From: Cohnella herbarum
Lineage (GTDB): Bacteria; Bacillota; Bacilli; Paenibacillales; Paenibacillaceae
Length of the DNA stretch: 64,000 bases
Assembly: GCF_012849095.1 (NCBI RefSeq)
Contig: NZ_CP051680.1
Span: 4,743,501-4,807,500 of the forward strand
Reading direction: 5' to 3'
Below are positions 3,612 through 57,400 of the stretch, in pieces. Each line of letters opens with the position of its first letter. The stretch's first letter is position 1. The notes below the pieces were generated by a model. It saw only the letters and a program-made list of their open reading frames with translations. It made no database searches and was not told the DNA's origin. Both the position numbers and the translations under genes were made by a program.

Positions 3612-3905
3612 GTTTTCTGCACGATGTCCGATTTTCTCCCGCCCCTATCGCGAAAATCTCTAATGTAGGATGCTCCAATTATCCCGCTCCTACAAATTAA
3701 CGTTATGACAAAACCCTATTCGACGCTCATTACCGCTTCGCTTAAAAATAACATTGTACCATCGCTTTATTTCCACTTTCAGATACATGATCGATCTTCT
3801 ATTTGACCAATAACATTCTCTCATCGTCTTATTCGTAGCTGTGCTTGGCCTTTCGCCGAAAATAACGTTACACCATCGCTCTATCCCATACATTGAGGTG
3901 CAATT

Positions 3906-4318
3906 CCTGAACAAAAGGGTTAATGGCTATACACCCTCAAACCGAATCCCCACACCAGCACTCTATCCCACACTTCGAGCACAGTTCCTGATCGAAAGGG
4001 ATAATGGCTATACACCCTCAAACCGAATCCCCACGCCATCACTCTATCCCAAACTTCGAACGCAGTACCTGACCGAAAGGGATAATGGCTATACGCCCTC
4101 AAACCGAATCCCCACACCAACACACTCTATCCCAAACTTCAAACGTAGTCCCTGACCGAAAGGGATAATGGCTATACACCCTTTCGAACCAAATCCCCTA
4201 CGCCATCAATCTATCCCATACTTCAAACGTAGTCCCTGACCGAAGGGGATAATGGCCATACGCCCTCTCGAACCAAATCCCCTACGCCATCATGAGCGAA
4301 GGGGATATGAATGGTTGT
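3906..4318. repeat. Degenerate tandem array of 81-84 bp units in the csaB/DUF5693 gap
   Basis: Units start at 3906, 3987, 4068, 4151 and 4235 (spacing 81, 81, 83, 84). Each begins with CCTGAnCnAAAGGGATAATGG, then tATACnCCCT, then CnAATCCCC and a CTATCCC block. The head is a diverged form of the CCTGAGCGAAGGGGAT repeat found at the other two repeat loci of this window. Older, decayed units continue upstream: AAAATAACnTTnnACCATCGCT occurs near 3747 and again near 3859. No gene is supported in 3612-4512; short open frames on both strands simply follow the repeat period. Confidence 0.85.
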
Positions 4319-4388
4319 CATTTGCTTGATTTACCATGAGATTTAGTACCATGTACTAACGCCTAACCGCCACGTGCAAATCGCTTTT

Positions 4389-4505
4389 CCTGAGCGAGCG
4401 GGATACCGTAAAAGCGAAACAAAGTCCGACTCTCGACTCCCGACTTCCCACTCCCCGGTACTCCCACGCCCCCACTTCCTGAGCGAAGGGGATACCGTCG
4501 AAAGC
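4389..4505. repeat. Two isolated copies of the dispersed CCTGAGCGA repeat
   Basis: Copies at 4389-4414 and 4478-4505 read CCTGAGCGA, G-rich, GATACCGT, AAAGCG, and share orientation. A third partial copy (TGAGCGAAGGGGATATGA) lies near 4294. They end just past the stop codon of the DUF5693 gene at 4513. Confidence 0.75.
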
Positions 4506-16804: not shown

Positions 16805-16830
16805 CTTTCACGCTATCCCCTTCGCTCAGG
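16805..16830. repeat. Dispersed repeat copy, upstream of the 14-bp array
   Basis: CTTTCACGCTATCCCC then TTCGCTCAGG, the exact reverse complement of the head of the right-hand array units. Same orientation as the copy at 17193-17218. The stretch 16559-16800 between spoIID and this copy shows nothing recognisable. Confidence 0.85.
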
Positions 16831-16851
16831 CACCCCGGACTCTTCCTTCTC

Positions 16852-17103
16852 GTACCGTCTTTTTCGTTCCGCCCTTCTCGTACCGCCCTTCTGGTACCGC
16901 CCTTCTGGTACCGCCCTTCTCGTACCGCCCTTCTGGTACCGCCCTTCTGGTACCGCCCTTCTGGTGCCGCCCTTCTGGTGCCGCCCTTCTGGTACCGCCC
17001 TTCTCGTGCCGCCCTTCTGGTGCCTCCCTTCTGGTACCGCCCTTCTCGTACCGCCCTTCTGGTACCGCCCTTCTGGTGCCGCCCTTCTCGTGCCGTCTTC
17101 TAT
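16852..17103. repeat. 14-bp minisatellite, 18 units without indels
   Basis: Unit GTACCGCCCTTCTG repeats with exact 14-base spacing from 16852 to 17103 (units at 16852, 16866, 16880 and so on to 17090). Variation is almost confined to two sites: A/G at position 3 and G/C at position 14; the first and last units are more decayed. Because 14 x 3 = 42, open frames on both strands show 14-residue periodicity, but they lack ribosome sites and are not called as genes. Confidence 0.9.
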
Positions 17104-17274
17104 AAGTTCGCTTCCCCTCCAACTTTATCCCCATGACTCAGAATTTCTTCACTTACTCAGTTCTCACCTCAATACATTGAATCAGCCCTCTCCTTTTACG
17201 CTATCCCTTTCGCTCAGGTAGAAGCTAGCCTCCAATAATTTAGGTAATTAATAGAAAAAAATATCTTTAAATAG

Positions 17275-17313
17275 GAACAAATGTTTGGTATAATGAAATG
17301 AGAACAAGTGTTC
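17275..17313 (+). promoter_or_regulatory. Promoter of the transposase-like gene with two LexA/SOS-type boxes
   Basis: An extended -10 (TGGTATAAT, 17287-17294) is flanked by GAACAAATGTTT (17275-17286) and GAACAAGTGTTC (17302-17313). Both fit the core GAACRNRYGTTY of the Bacillus LexA (DinR) operator; the second is a perfect 12-bp palindrome. One box overlaps the promoter's spacer edge and the other sits near the expected transcription start, a layout suited to repression. Flanking C/G positions of the full operator are not met. LexA control is inferred. Confidence 0.6.
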
Positions 17314-17340
17314 TTTTGCGAAAGGAGCTGACAATGCGGG

Positions 17341-18267
17341 ATGAGTCTGAAACTTGCTACCGAAGCCTTTAATGCATTTTGTGCAAGGTACGATAAGGAA
17401 GAGGACTGTATCGATGCGTTATTCCACGCCAAGTGGCCGGACGGATTCCGCTGCCCTCATTGTCATTGCCCTCAAGCTTATGTAATTTCGACTCGCAAAC
17501 TTCCTCTATATGAATGCCGTTCCTGTAAAGCGCAAACCTCTTTGATCGCGGGGACGATCATGGAAGGAAGCCGTACGCCGTTACGCCGTTGGTTTCAGGC
17601 CATCCATCTTCACGCTAGACCGCGTAGCGTTAATGCTCTCGAACTGTCTAACCTCATCAAGGTGACTTATAAAACCGCCTGGTTAATTTGTCATAAAATT
17701 CGCCATGCCATGAGTCAAGCCGATTCCGAGGTTTTATTGACCGGAGTTGTCAGAATATCGGACGCCATTTGCTACAAGAGATTAACGAGTACTTTCGAGC
17801 TACACAAACAAGAGCAGCCAGTACTCATAGGAACATCCGACGACTTAGAAGGAAATATCGGTTTTATCAAAATAAAGCACCAATCCAAGCTAACCCTGCG
17901 AGATAAATATGATTGTCCTGATCCTAGACCATTCGTAGCCAAACACGTGAATCCCGAATCCGCGGAAAATGTTATTCTCACACGACGCTACGGTAAAACG
18001 ATGAACAAAACTCTGGTTTGGGAGAGCTTCTATCTTTCTTCATGGTTAGGGAGAGTCTTTCGAGGCATAGGCCCTAAGCATCTTCAAGTGTATATGGATC
18101 AATATTGTTATCAATCCAATCACCATTCCAACACCCGGTTCGCCAGCCTCCTTCTTGATAGCGCTCGTTTTCTTACGATTACTTATCCAGCTCTAACCGG
18201 CCGCTCCAACACCCAACGTTCTCTCCAACGGTCGCGAGTTACTCGGCGATCGAAACAAGCTGTCTAA
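17341..18267 (+). CDS. IS1595-like transposase homologue with lost DDE motifs
   Basis: 308 residues. N-terminal part matches IS1595-family transposases: FHAKWPDGFRCPHCHC with the paired CPHC and CRSC zinc-ribbon cysteines (about 37-63), SLIAGTIMEGSRTPLRRWFQAIH, and KTAWLICHKIRHAM. The end also matches (GIGPKHLQVYMDQYCYQSN). Between them the catalytic region is unrecognisable: where active members have VEVDE with the first catalytic Asp, this reads VVRISDAICYKRL, and the second Asp block is missing. The frame is nevertheless intact. The ideal ribosome site (AAAGGAG, 17321-17327) is spaced for an ATG at 17334, which opens only a 12-codon frame ending at 17372; the real frame starts at 17341 in another phase. 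Base composition is more AT-rich than neighbours. Likely domesticated or decaying; function unknown. Confidence 0.75.
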   Translation: MSLKLATEAFNAFCARYDKEEDCIDALFHAKWPDGFRCPHCHCPQAYVISTRKLPLYECRSCKAQTSLIAGTIMEGSRTPLRRWFQAIHLHARPRSVNALELSNLIKVTYKTAWLICHKIRHAMSQADSEVLLTGVVRISDAICYKRLTSTFELHKQEQPVLIGTSDDLEGNIGFIKIKHQSKLTLRDKYDCPDPRPFVAKHVNPESAENVILTRRYGKTMNKTLVWESFYLSSWLGRVFRGIGPKHLQVYMDQYCYQSNHHSNTRFASLLLDSARFLTITYPALTGRSNTQRSLQRSRVTRRSKQAV

Positions 18268-18356
18268 TGCTTCTCAGATTTGAAACTGAGCGATTAGTGA
18301 TAAAGATAGGTGTACGAACATCCGATACGAGTAAGCGAAGTTAGCAGGTGAACGCT

Positions 18357-18900
18357 CCTGAGCGACGGGGATAGCGTGAAAGAGCAATCGGAGGAGGTCC
18401 AATCAATGCGAAAATGTGAAGTTAACAGCAGCGGAGGTTGCCTGAGCGACGGGGATAACATGAAAGAGCGATCGAAGTGTGACCAATCGGTGCGAATATG
18501 TAAAGATAACAAACAGCAGCGTCGGTTTCCTGAGCGACGGGGATAGCGTGAAAGAGCAATCGGAGTGCGACCAATCGGTGCGAAAATGTGAAGTTAACAG
18601 CAGCGGAGGTTGCCTGAGCGACGGGGATAACATGAAAGAGCGATCGAAGTGTGACCAATCGGTGCGAATATGTAAAGATAACAAACAGCAGCGTCGGTTT
18701 CCTGAGCGACGGGGATAGCGTGAAAGAGCAATCGGAGGAGGACCAATCGGTGCGAAAATGTGAAGTTATCAGCAGCGGCGGTTGCCTGAGCGAAGGGGAT
18801 AGCGTGAAAGAGCAATCGGAGGGAGACCAATCGATGCGAATATGTGAAGTTAACAGCAGCGGCGGTTGCCTGAGCGAAGGGGATAGCGTAGCAGAGGGAA
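18357..18900. repeat. Tandem array of 84/88 bp units after the transposase-like gene
   Basis: Units start at 18357, 18441, 18529, 18613, 18701, 18785 and 18869 (spacings 84, 88, 84, 88, 84, 84). All begin CCTGAGCGAnGGGGATAnCn. Alternating unit types form a near-identical 172-bp dimer (18357-18528 and 18529-18700), so the array grew by duplication of two-unit blocks. The last unit is cut short. Apparent open frames here on both strands follow the repeat and are not called. Beyond 18900 up to the murA stop at 19077 I see only the murA terminator. Confidence 0.92.
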
Positions 18901-45785: not shown

Positions 45786-45900
45786 ACAAAAAAGAGCAGA
45801 CGTGCTCTCGCACGTTGCTCTTTGCCCAGGCGACCGGCCGTCATTCCGATGCTCCACCGTGGTATGCTCCACTTGTCGTCGCCAGTTACATCGGAACCTT
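45786..45900 (-). promoter_or_regulatory. ZTP (pfl) riboswitch with transcription terminator
   Basis: Minus-strand RNA. P1 pairs TTCCGATG (45889-45896) with CATCGGAA (45844-45851). Between them lie TAACTGGCGAC and the GTGG...CCACGGTGGAGC hairpin. Downstream, GGCCGGTCGCCTGGGC (45824-45830 for the GCCTGGGC part) is the second conserved half of the ZTP aptamer. It is followed immediately by a terminator: AGAGCAACGTGC-gaga-GCACGTCTGCTCT and TTTTTT (45788-45822). ZTP accumulates when 10-formyl-THF is low, and binding turns such genes on; that fits control of the following TIGR01440-glyA unit. This stretch fills most of the gene-free 45635-45993. Confidence 0.9.
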
Positions 45901-51661: not shown

Positions 51662-52225
51662 GTGGAAGAACCGGTTATGCACAAGATTCTTGATGTGGTC
51701 AATACGCTGTATACTGCGGTAACGGGCTTGCAGACGGACATGACTAGCTTGCGGTCGGACGTAACAGGATTGCAGACGGAAATGAAAAGCTTGCGGTCGG
51801 ACGTAACAGGATTGCAGACGGACATGACAAACTTGCGGTCGGACGTGACGGGCTTGCAGACGGAAATGAAAAGCTTGCGGTCGGACGTAACAGGATTGCA
51901 GACGGAAATGAAAAGCTTGCGGTCGGACATGACGGAAGTGAAGCAGGACATTCGCATACTCAAAAATGACGTATGCAGACTGGAGAGCAAAGTCGACCAG
52001 ATCGATGCCCGAACCGAACGCTTGGAGCAACGCATGGATATGACGTTCGATACCGTAGGAAAGATCAAGGAGGAAGTCACCGAGATCAAGGTGGATGTTG
52101 CCGAGATCAGAGAAGAAGTCGTCGAGTCAAAACCCAAACTGGAACGGCACGAGCTTCTGCTAGGAGAAATCGCCAAGTCTCTCTTGGAACAAACCGCCCG
52201 GAGTAGGCTACCCAAGCCGATCTAA
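51662..52225 (+). CDS. Coiled-coil protein built on 14-residue repeats
   Basis: 187 residues, GTG start seven bases after GAGGAGG. Residues ~22-92 hold five near-identical 14-residue repeats (SDVTGLQTEMKSLR), two heptads each; coiled coil continues to about residue 150 (VDQIDARTERLEQRMD, KIKEEVTEIKVDVAEIREEV). No membrane segment or enzyme motif. Similar DUF-type coiled-coil proteins are common in Bacillales and their role is unknown. It is downstream of the LysR gene in the same direction and ends at a shared terminator. Confidence 0.8.
   Translation: MEEPVMHKILDVVNTLYTAVTGLQTDMTSLRSDVTGLQTEMKSLRSDVTGLQTDMTNLRSDVTGLQTEMKSLRSDVTGLQTEMKSLRSDMTEVKQDIRILKNDVCRLESKVDQIDARTERLEQRMDMTFDTVGKIKEEVTEIKVDVAEIREEVVESKPKLERHELLLGEIAKSLLEQTARSRLPKPI
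51733..51942. repeat. 42-bp in-frame tandem repeat inside the coiled-coil gene
   Basis: The block TTGCGGTCGGACGTAACAGG, then ATTGCAGACGGAAATGAAAAGC, recurs about five times at 42-base spacing with only a few substitutions. DNA-level identity is higher than needed to keep the protein pattern, pointing to recent expansion. Confidence 0.88.
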
Positions 52226-56986: not shown

Positions 56987-57400
56987 CTCTTTCACGCTAT
57001 CCCCTTCGCTCAGTACGCACGCCCTCTATGCTATCCCATTCGCTCAGTACACATATCTTTCTACGCTATCCCCTTCGCTCAGTAAGCACGCCCTTCTACG
57101 CTATCCCCTTCGTTCAGGTAAAGGTTCCCCACACCTTTCCTGAGCAAAAGGGATAGCGTGAAAGGCGATCGGATTGAATAAAACACCGCCTACGTACGAT
57201 TACCGAACTACTCGCGGCACCCGCAGCTCCCCTTCGCTCAGTAAGCACGCCCTTCTACGCTATCCCCTTCGTTCAGGTAAAGGTTCCCCACACCTTTCCT
57301 GAGCAAAAGGGATAGCGTGAAAGGCGTACGGGATTCGATATACACCGCCTACGTACGATTACCGAACTACTCGCGGCACCCGCAGCAAACCCGCACTCCC
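56987..57400. repeat. Dispersed-repeat cluster with a 159-bp direct duplication and long hairpins
   Basis: Four or more head-to-tail copies of the ACGCTATCCCCTTCGCTCAG repeat start at about 56988, 57029, 57061 and 57097. A 159-bp block at 57070-57228 is repeated at 57229-57387 with few changes. Each block holds an inverted pair: CGCTATCCC...TTCAGGTAAAGGT and ACCTTTCCTGAGC...GGGATAGCG, which can fold into a stem of about 27 bp (57099-57158 and 57258-57317). No gene is supported in 56891-57402. Confidence 0.88.

Follow-up and report, generated by a model that had tools for sequence, protein, structure and literature searches.

The REP/RAYT system (TnpA-REP, REPtron) of repetitive extragenic palindromic (REP) sequences and their REP-associated tyrosine transposases (RAYTs) is the closest described parallel to the locus reported here, and its features were taken for comparison from the available parts of PMC8266576 and PMC2817692. 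The rayt genes evolve faster than their neighbours according to the part of PMC2817692 at hand, and the available portion of PMC8266576 reports no mobility of tnpA-REP. RUP and Correia are presented in the former source as miniature inverted-repeat transposable elements (MITEs) of DDE elements. In Stentor and like eukaryotes, domesticated open reading frames (ORFs) of Merlin, which is related to IS1595, are conserved, several without a DDE motif and some in synteny, and the authors read them as a domestication (PMC8101967, available part). In this study, we describe a stretch of 64,000 nucleotides of the Cohnella herbarum genome (NZ_CP051680.1, positions 4,743,501 to 4,807,500), hereafter the window, in which the gene of a transposase-like protein of 308 amino acids (aa) is enclosed by a dispersed intergenic repeat. 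In the genomes compared, gene and repeat are a linked, co-inherited and co-varying pair with RAYT-like anatomy.

The gene (17341..18267, plus strand) is an intact ORF encoding a zinc ribbon, a helix-turn-helix (HTH)-like stretch and a putative RNase H-like domain devoid of the catalytic triad. A preliminary description of the window, made from the letters alone, had placed the repeat at three intergenic places and never inside genes. This was borne out, since the core CCTGAGCGAAGGGGATAGCG gave 19 matches (at most 3 mismatches) at about 4.2-4.5, 16.8-18.9 and 57.0-57.3 kb, with 0 expected from 100 shuffles. These shuffles, together with a reversed-pattern control, rule out that the repeat is a chance product. 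A known RNA was also discarded, the sole Rfam match in the window being a ZMP/ZTP riboswitch at another place (45817-45899, minus strand). The enclosure of the gene by inverted copies was likewise found as described, but what lies on the right is not a single copy; seven plus-strand copies form an array there in units of 84-88 bp (18357..18889). On the left, pattern matching located an inner minus-strand copy with 1 mismatch (17199..17218) and an outer exact one (16811..16830, minus strand), which are separated by an unrelated 14-bp unit, CCTTCTGGTACCGC, present in 17 copies (16845..17088). Unrelated simple or tandem repeats are expanded near the gene in several species, as with this 14-mer and in the flanks of loci L095, L096 and L111; GGGGTT, ACTT and TTCTCGG runs occur among the expansions beside the gene, which look as though the locus favours tandem duplication.

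A protein search of the window's own genome (G000, 8.52 Mb) revealed seven matches, five of full length and two partial. The other four full-length paralogs shared 58, 49, 46 and 44% identity with the window copy. All five full-length genes had minus repeats on the left and plus repeats on the right, whatever the strand of the gene, with 36 repeat matches flanking them, and neither partial paralog had flanking repeats. The expectation that copy number tracks the gene was confirmed in 245 genomes of the family Paenibacillaceae, in which the protein was called at E 1e-10. The 82 genomes with the gene contained 1-126 repeats (median 23) and the 163 without it 0-21 (median 3), the reversed-pattern control having a median of 1 (Mann-Whitney p 4e-27; within-genus permutation 0/20,000). 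Gene number, scored up to 9 per genome, correlated with repeat number (Spearman 0.64), and in genus g13 the only gene-bearing genome among 31 had 32 repeats, the remaining ones 0-6. An abundance of the repeat in gene-less relatives, which the preliminary description held to be damaging to its proposal, was mostly not seen, with at most 9 copies in 162 of the 163. Three observations weigh against so close a link: the exception, G016 (89% complete), has 21 repeats and no gene, no more than 8 repeats were counted in 25 of the 82 genomes with the gene, and the repeats adjoining the gene itself raise the counts of gene-bearing genomes.

The same arrangement was found at the locus level. We assigned 56 of the 80 named loci to one clade (Cohnella, Paenibacillus, Ammoniphilus and other Paenibacillaceae), leaving outside the count L121 and L123-L125, which belong to other taxa and keep the catalytic residues, and the distant L127-L146. 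Repeats stood on both sides of the gene at 44 clade loci, on one side at 10 and on neither at 2, some flanks ending at contig ends, so that genes without nearby repeats, also regarded beforehand as adverse, are rare. The two, L101 and L114, lack an expected-orientation copy on either side, the right flank of L101 being only 706 bp long. By orientation, the clade flanks had 117 upstream-minus, 82 downstream-plus and 7 opposite copies (3 matches for the reversed control). At 18 of the 20 distant loci no expected-orientation motif was present on either side, and L135 had both.

Across G000 the repeat proved far more numerous than previously noted, the genome-wide count of TGAGCGAANGGGATA (at most 1 mismatch) giving 107 matches (61+46) versus 2 for the reversed pattern. 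The 107 clustered intergenic copies defined a conserved element of about 27 bp, CTGANCGAANGGGATAnNGnnnAnA, in whose consensus the GTAG tetranucleotide is absent. Among the matches listed (at most 2 mismatches, in the window and 40 stretches, with three listed singletons left out), 117 were intergenic and 32 lay inside ORFs of at least 110 aa. The latter, as a group, were without the extended motif and look like chance matches for the most part; two of them (4760314 and 4922996) fell in doubtful ORFs within arrays. Successive copies were oriented ++ in 44 cases, -- in 34, -+ in 14 and +- in 1, and almost all clusters are an outward palindrome or half of one. The plan of the gene loci is repeated at several gene-less loci, among them C1:2283066-2283452 (5 minus, 4 plus), 2317506-2318073 (5 and 5) and 6763648-6764372 (5 and 8). 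Pairwise best local alignments of the gene-less segments extended over 28-159 bp, and those of about 50 bp and more (67-75% identity) fall in array regions, where they probably span several array units. Of the 37 Cohnella genomes, 17 contained inverted repeat pairs (0 for the reversed control); their spacers vary and no shared interior was seen by eye.

The window itself holds two gene-less arrays. One (3870..4497) has eight plus-strand copies of mixed tail types (3908-4494, at most 2 mismatches to a degenerate core), and the other (56995..57386) contains two inverted pairs, 57099-/57139+ and 57258-/57298+, each with an offset of 40. Neither a single repeat nor an array unit (one of each folded) gave a stable hairpin, and the inverted pair 57099-/57139+ did (z -6.6). 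In addition, a five-copy array (L156, G000:C1:2025979-2026182) is located some 0.6 kb 5' of recA (box 2025379), in the interval that separates recA from the next gene, a proximity that may be chance, and a tandem 42-bp repeat is present in the window at 51719-51951.

With respect to the protein, the preliminary description as an IS1595-like member of a DDE family must be divided. The IS1595 zinc ribbon is present at aa 20-65 (PF12760, E 2e-12), with Zn_ribbon_IS1595 the only Pfam model above its cut-off and the NCBIfam IS1595 model sub-threshold, and an HTH-like stretch, TYKTAWLICHKIR, was recognised; neither database revealed a HUH (Y1) transposase domain. A retained RNase H-like fold is predicted, Foldseek giving no match at E 0.001 and no sequence relative of solved structure being found at E 1. 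In turn, the DDE character did not stand. Triads of IS1595 subgroups include DDN and DDH; the corresponding positions of the window protein are S, I and V, and a full DDE/DDH triad is kept in none of 61 aligned clade sequences from Paenibacillaceae (first Asp in 1; second in 0, with 4 gaps; third position Glu in 0 and His in 2, with 3 gaps). Among 20 distant IS1595 proteins, 19 had DDE and 1 DDH. In an alignment of 86 clade members the only Asp or Glu conserved at 90% or more was E20, the triad columns being unconstrained. Nevertheless, judging from their sequences, the triad-less proteins are conserved by selection: the ratio of nonsynonymous to synonymous substitution (dN/dS) was 0.10-0.36 in 10 of 11 defined pairs and 0.58 in L093/L094 (undefined in 2 of 13), with medians of 0.24 and 0.21 within multicopy sets.

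No PADLOC match to an anti-phage protein was obtained at E 0.1. Plasmid-borne copies of the gene were discarded, all 244 matching plasmid records being below 60% identity; the best 25 of the 244 were at 25-31%, and these were named IS1595 transposases or were hypothetical or without a name. Copies of the N-terminal part only, in frames of about 150-173 aa at 63-67% identity, were observed in G235 (C16, C27, C3 and C11) and G184 (C14 and C34), several at contig ends, and are possibly a multicopy short form.

The origin of the repeat may be sought among the DDH relatives, elements of about 1 kb with a single copy of a related motif per end: ATGGTTATCCCTTTAACACACCAC in L300 (Ruminococcus albus plasmid), TGACTATCCCTTTCCCTCATC in L124 and TATGATTATCCCTTTAGTTCAG in L135. 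The IS1595 family makes target duplications of about 8 bp. Within 1-2 bp of their ends, L300, L124, L135 and L306 are flanked by direct repeats of 8-11 bp; L301 showed no clear ones, and those of L302 were found only away from the ends. The DDH triad was read in L300, L301, L303, L306, L124 and L135, those of L302 and L305 not being readable. Because these relatives bear a related motif at each end, the Cohnella repeat is most simply seen as a former IS1595 terminal repeat. Repeat tails, compared at 45 loci (44 of the clade and L124), were more similar within a locus (0.66) than between loci (0.40), and at 14 of the 45 the opposite side of the same locus matched best. Protein distance correlated with tail distance (Mantel 0.48, 0/2000), a correlation that shared descent alone could explain. 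The tail AAGGNACTG (at most 1 mismatch) was present more than once in three Cohnella genomes of 37, namely G230, G101 and G133, and these three are also the ones with a full-length protein of at least 56% identity to L104, a cut chosen after the list was known. The next genome, G201 (55% to L104), had no copy of AAGGNACTG; partial proteins 58-62% identical to L104 were found in G247, G225 and G206, and single matches of the tail in G225, G000 and G178.

The LexA box has the consensus GAAC-N4-GTTC. An exact LexA/SOS-type box, GAACAAGTGTTC (17302..17313), is placed 39 bp 5' of the start codon of the window gene, and a second one with one mismatch, GAACAAATGTTT (17275..17286), identified by reading the sequence with no separate score, lies directly 5' of a TATAAT (17289-17294). 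When the best such box was sought within 180 bp upstream at 64 loci, it was exact in 32 and had 1 mismatch in 25, the respective proportions being 0.1 and 5% in shuffles and 0.1 and 7% in other stretches of those loci. In the clade alone (55 named loci with enough upstream sequence and five G000 paralogs), a box with at most 1 mismatch was found in 56 of 60 (32 exact, 24 with one mismatch; exceptions L067, L081, L086 and L089), and the multicopy units had an exact box in 20 of 20 (15 in G240, five in G019). None of the 20 distant IS1595 had one with at most 1 mismatch. Like boxes stand in front of lexA (two), recA, rarA/mgsA and, also in G000, the genes of a SRAP protein and of a short paralog with the zinc ribbon. 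It must be noted that the exact pattern has 54 matches in G000 versus 35 for the reversed control; therefore, many single boxes are chance, and the SOS claim rests on the clade-wide enrichment. From it we infer LexA-type control of the clade genes, which the preliminary description had not foreseen, and their induction by DNA damage. Exact boxes were found at no fewer than four such G000 genes, three of full length and one a short paralog with the zinc ribbon, and the family may therefore be a sizeable share of the SOS regulon. A 208-aa zinc-ribbon paralog (L037 and L348, G000:C1:8199362-8199706) has an exact SOS-type box and no repeats nearby.

Several species groups keep the gene-plus-array unit at a fixed position, both flanks being alike between species at several loci, e.g., L067/L068, L075/L077 and L098/L104. 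The murA-spoIID interval was searched in 37 genomes and read at 30 loci: six had gene and repeats, two a diverged gene with no repeats seen, 14 had murA near and neither gene nor repeats, and 8 were not judgeable (one with four repeats). Four window-type orthologs in this interval were 65-72% identical and the neighbouring spoIID 56-65%, so that the gene is not conspicuously faster than its neighbour. Copying of the unit was also observed. The C. terricola loci L070 and L071 are 90% identical across 1.7 kb including the arrays and have different flanks, the upstream flank of L071 matching L069 of C. phaseoli. The unit is multicopy in at least two genomes, namely G240, with 17 copies of one kind among those listed (one with an internal stop; 15 compared, 86-94% pairwise), and G019, with five copies at 87-96%. 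A 731-kb contig of G240 contains two further units lacking most or part of the gene and keeping repeats on both sides. The gene-less palindromic arrays probably stem from deletion of the gene out of such units, against which it counts that a search of 16 segments of G000 gene-less arrays (E 0.01) gave no recognisable gene remnant. Much of the repeat dispersal can thus be explained by copying of units and subsequent gene loss, without mobilisation of single repeats. The copies of Paenibacillus macerans and P. oralis (L115, L122 and L116) sit within a larger shared block, which in L115/L122 has inverted ends of the TTATAACTCAACTTTCGCA type and is probably another transposon.

On balance, we favour as rather probable that an IS1595-type transposon gave rise to the locus as a REPtron-like chromosomal element, which is SOS-controlled, triad-less and repeat-binding, with a slow turnover of units. 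Sequence comparison points to an ancestor with a DDH-type transposase and terminal repeats like TG(R)(Y)TATCCCTTTnnnTCAG. In the Paenibacillaceae lineage the triad was lost and putative LexA-type control acquired, and from the terminal repeats grew the arrays that face outward to the left and right of the gene. Binding to the repeat is most likely retained by the protein, by way of its zinc ribbon, HTH and C-terminal domain; consequently, DNA damage would yield a protein that meets its sites around its own gene and in the arrays at other intergenic loci, possibly to the benefit of the host. The unit would be inherited mostly vertically at fixed loci and occasionally copied to new intergenic sites, where it may lose its gene and leave a palindromic gene-less array; copying was seen in several genomes and internal deletion in one, from which it is extrapolated to the others. 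The copying chemistry might be that of another enzyme in trans or of SOS-linked recombination, or the protein may have an activity that has escaped recognition.

Other explanations differ mainly in what moves the repeats. According to the preliminary description the enclosed protein is, or was, the factor that spreads or binds the repeat. The linked, co-varying, RAYT-like pair agrees with this, but not a DDE enzyme doing the job. That the protein itself catalytically spreads single repeats, as RAYTs are thought to do, would suit a copy number that tracks the gene and G000 gene-less loci with little in common beyond the repeat and array units; the absent triad makes it very improbable, as do outward arrays with nearly always one switch from minus to plus per locus, which fit the ends of a former unit and not independent insertions. 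A still-mobile insertion sequence, with an active site rebuilt or unrecognised, the repeats as its ends and the dispersed copies as MITE-like relics, would account for the closely similar G240 units with intact ORFs and low median dN/dS (0.24), for their proteins reading VRVDPISYG, by eye with an Asp at or near the first triad position, and for the C. terricola duplication, in which array repeats lie close to the block ends. We hold it to be unlikely, given that E20 alone among acidic residues is conserved, that the G240 units end beyond their outermost repeats, with ends that differ among copies, that no target duplication was noticed by eye at multicopy units and that orthologs occupy fixed loci.

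Mobilisation in trans by another transposase, the protein being a repressor or passenger, seems less likely still. G000 has many repeat loci though the family model revealed no catalytic IS1595 in it (its 5 matches were headed by a known paralog at 61.6 bits), and the multi-unit G240 also has an IS1595 with acidic motifs (L188). However, the 12 better-scoring IS1595 loci of other Cohnella (L187-L198, each from a different genome and several of them partial), when read for the inverted motif pair (at most 2 mismatches), had it in no case, and a pure passenger would need neither a conserved gene nor a conserved SOS-type box. Returning to the REPtron-like element, we would tentatively go further and suggest, as a possibility somewhat short of an even chance, an independent second origin of a REP/RAYT-type partnership, in which an SOS-induced, repeat-binding, triad-less IS1595 protein has units multiplying without a DDE active site. 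Its scope would be part of the Paenibacillaceae, often with several paralogs per genome and their own repeat subtypes.

No description of such a gene-repeat system was found in the titles and opening lines of abstracts listed from the open-licence PMC literature, which is not proof of absence. A gene-plus-dispersed-repeat architecture appears here to have arisen from an unrelated transposase superfamily, with intermediates visible in DDH relatives that have one repeat per end, in array units without a triad and in arrays without a gene. It offers a new test system for how REP-like repeats spread and why hosts retain them, and the putative clade-wide LexA-type control would tie the gene family to DNA damage.

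Compared with known systems, the locus resembles REP/RAYT in a gene between inverted, dispersed intergenic repeats, in the correlated abundance and co-variation of both, and in orthologs that hold their position. It is not a RAYT system, since HUH/Y1 domain and folding single repeat are missing; the lack of GTAG, the LexA-type box, the single orientation per array side, the multicopy units of some genomes, where a RAYT gene is single-copy, and a gene that does not conspicuously outpace its neighbours are further differences. With the IS1595 family it shares zinc ribbon, HTH, the predicted RNase H-like fold and a repeat resembling the DDH-type ends (L124, L135, L300). It is not an active member because the triad is lost, and it also differs in having arrays instead of a single end repeat, in showing no target duplication that is clear, in being inherited vertically at many of its loci and in its SOS-type box. 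The domesticated Merlin cases, as far as their source describes them, are without terminal inverted repeats, whereas here the former terminal repeats have been amplified and dispersed. Short gene-less units bearing transposon ends recall the RUP and Correia MITEs, but no common interior and no catalytic partner were found in G000 and the tandem arrays are expanded. Foldback elements are eukaryotic and have inverted ends of tandem repeats, and it is in this architecture, inverted ends made from tandem repeats, that our locus can be likened to them.
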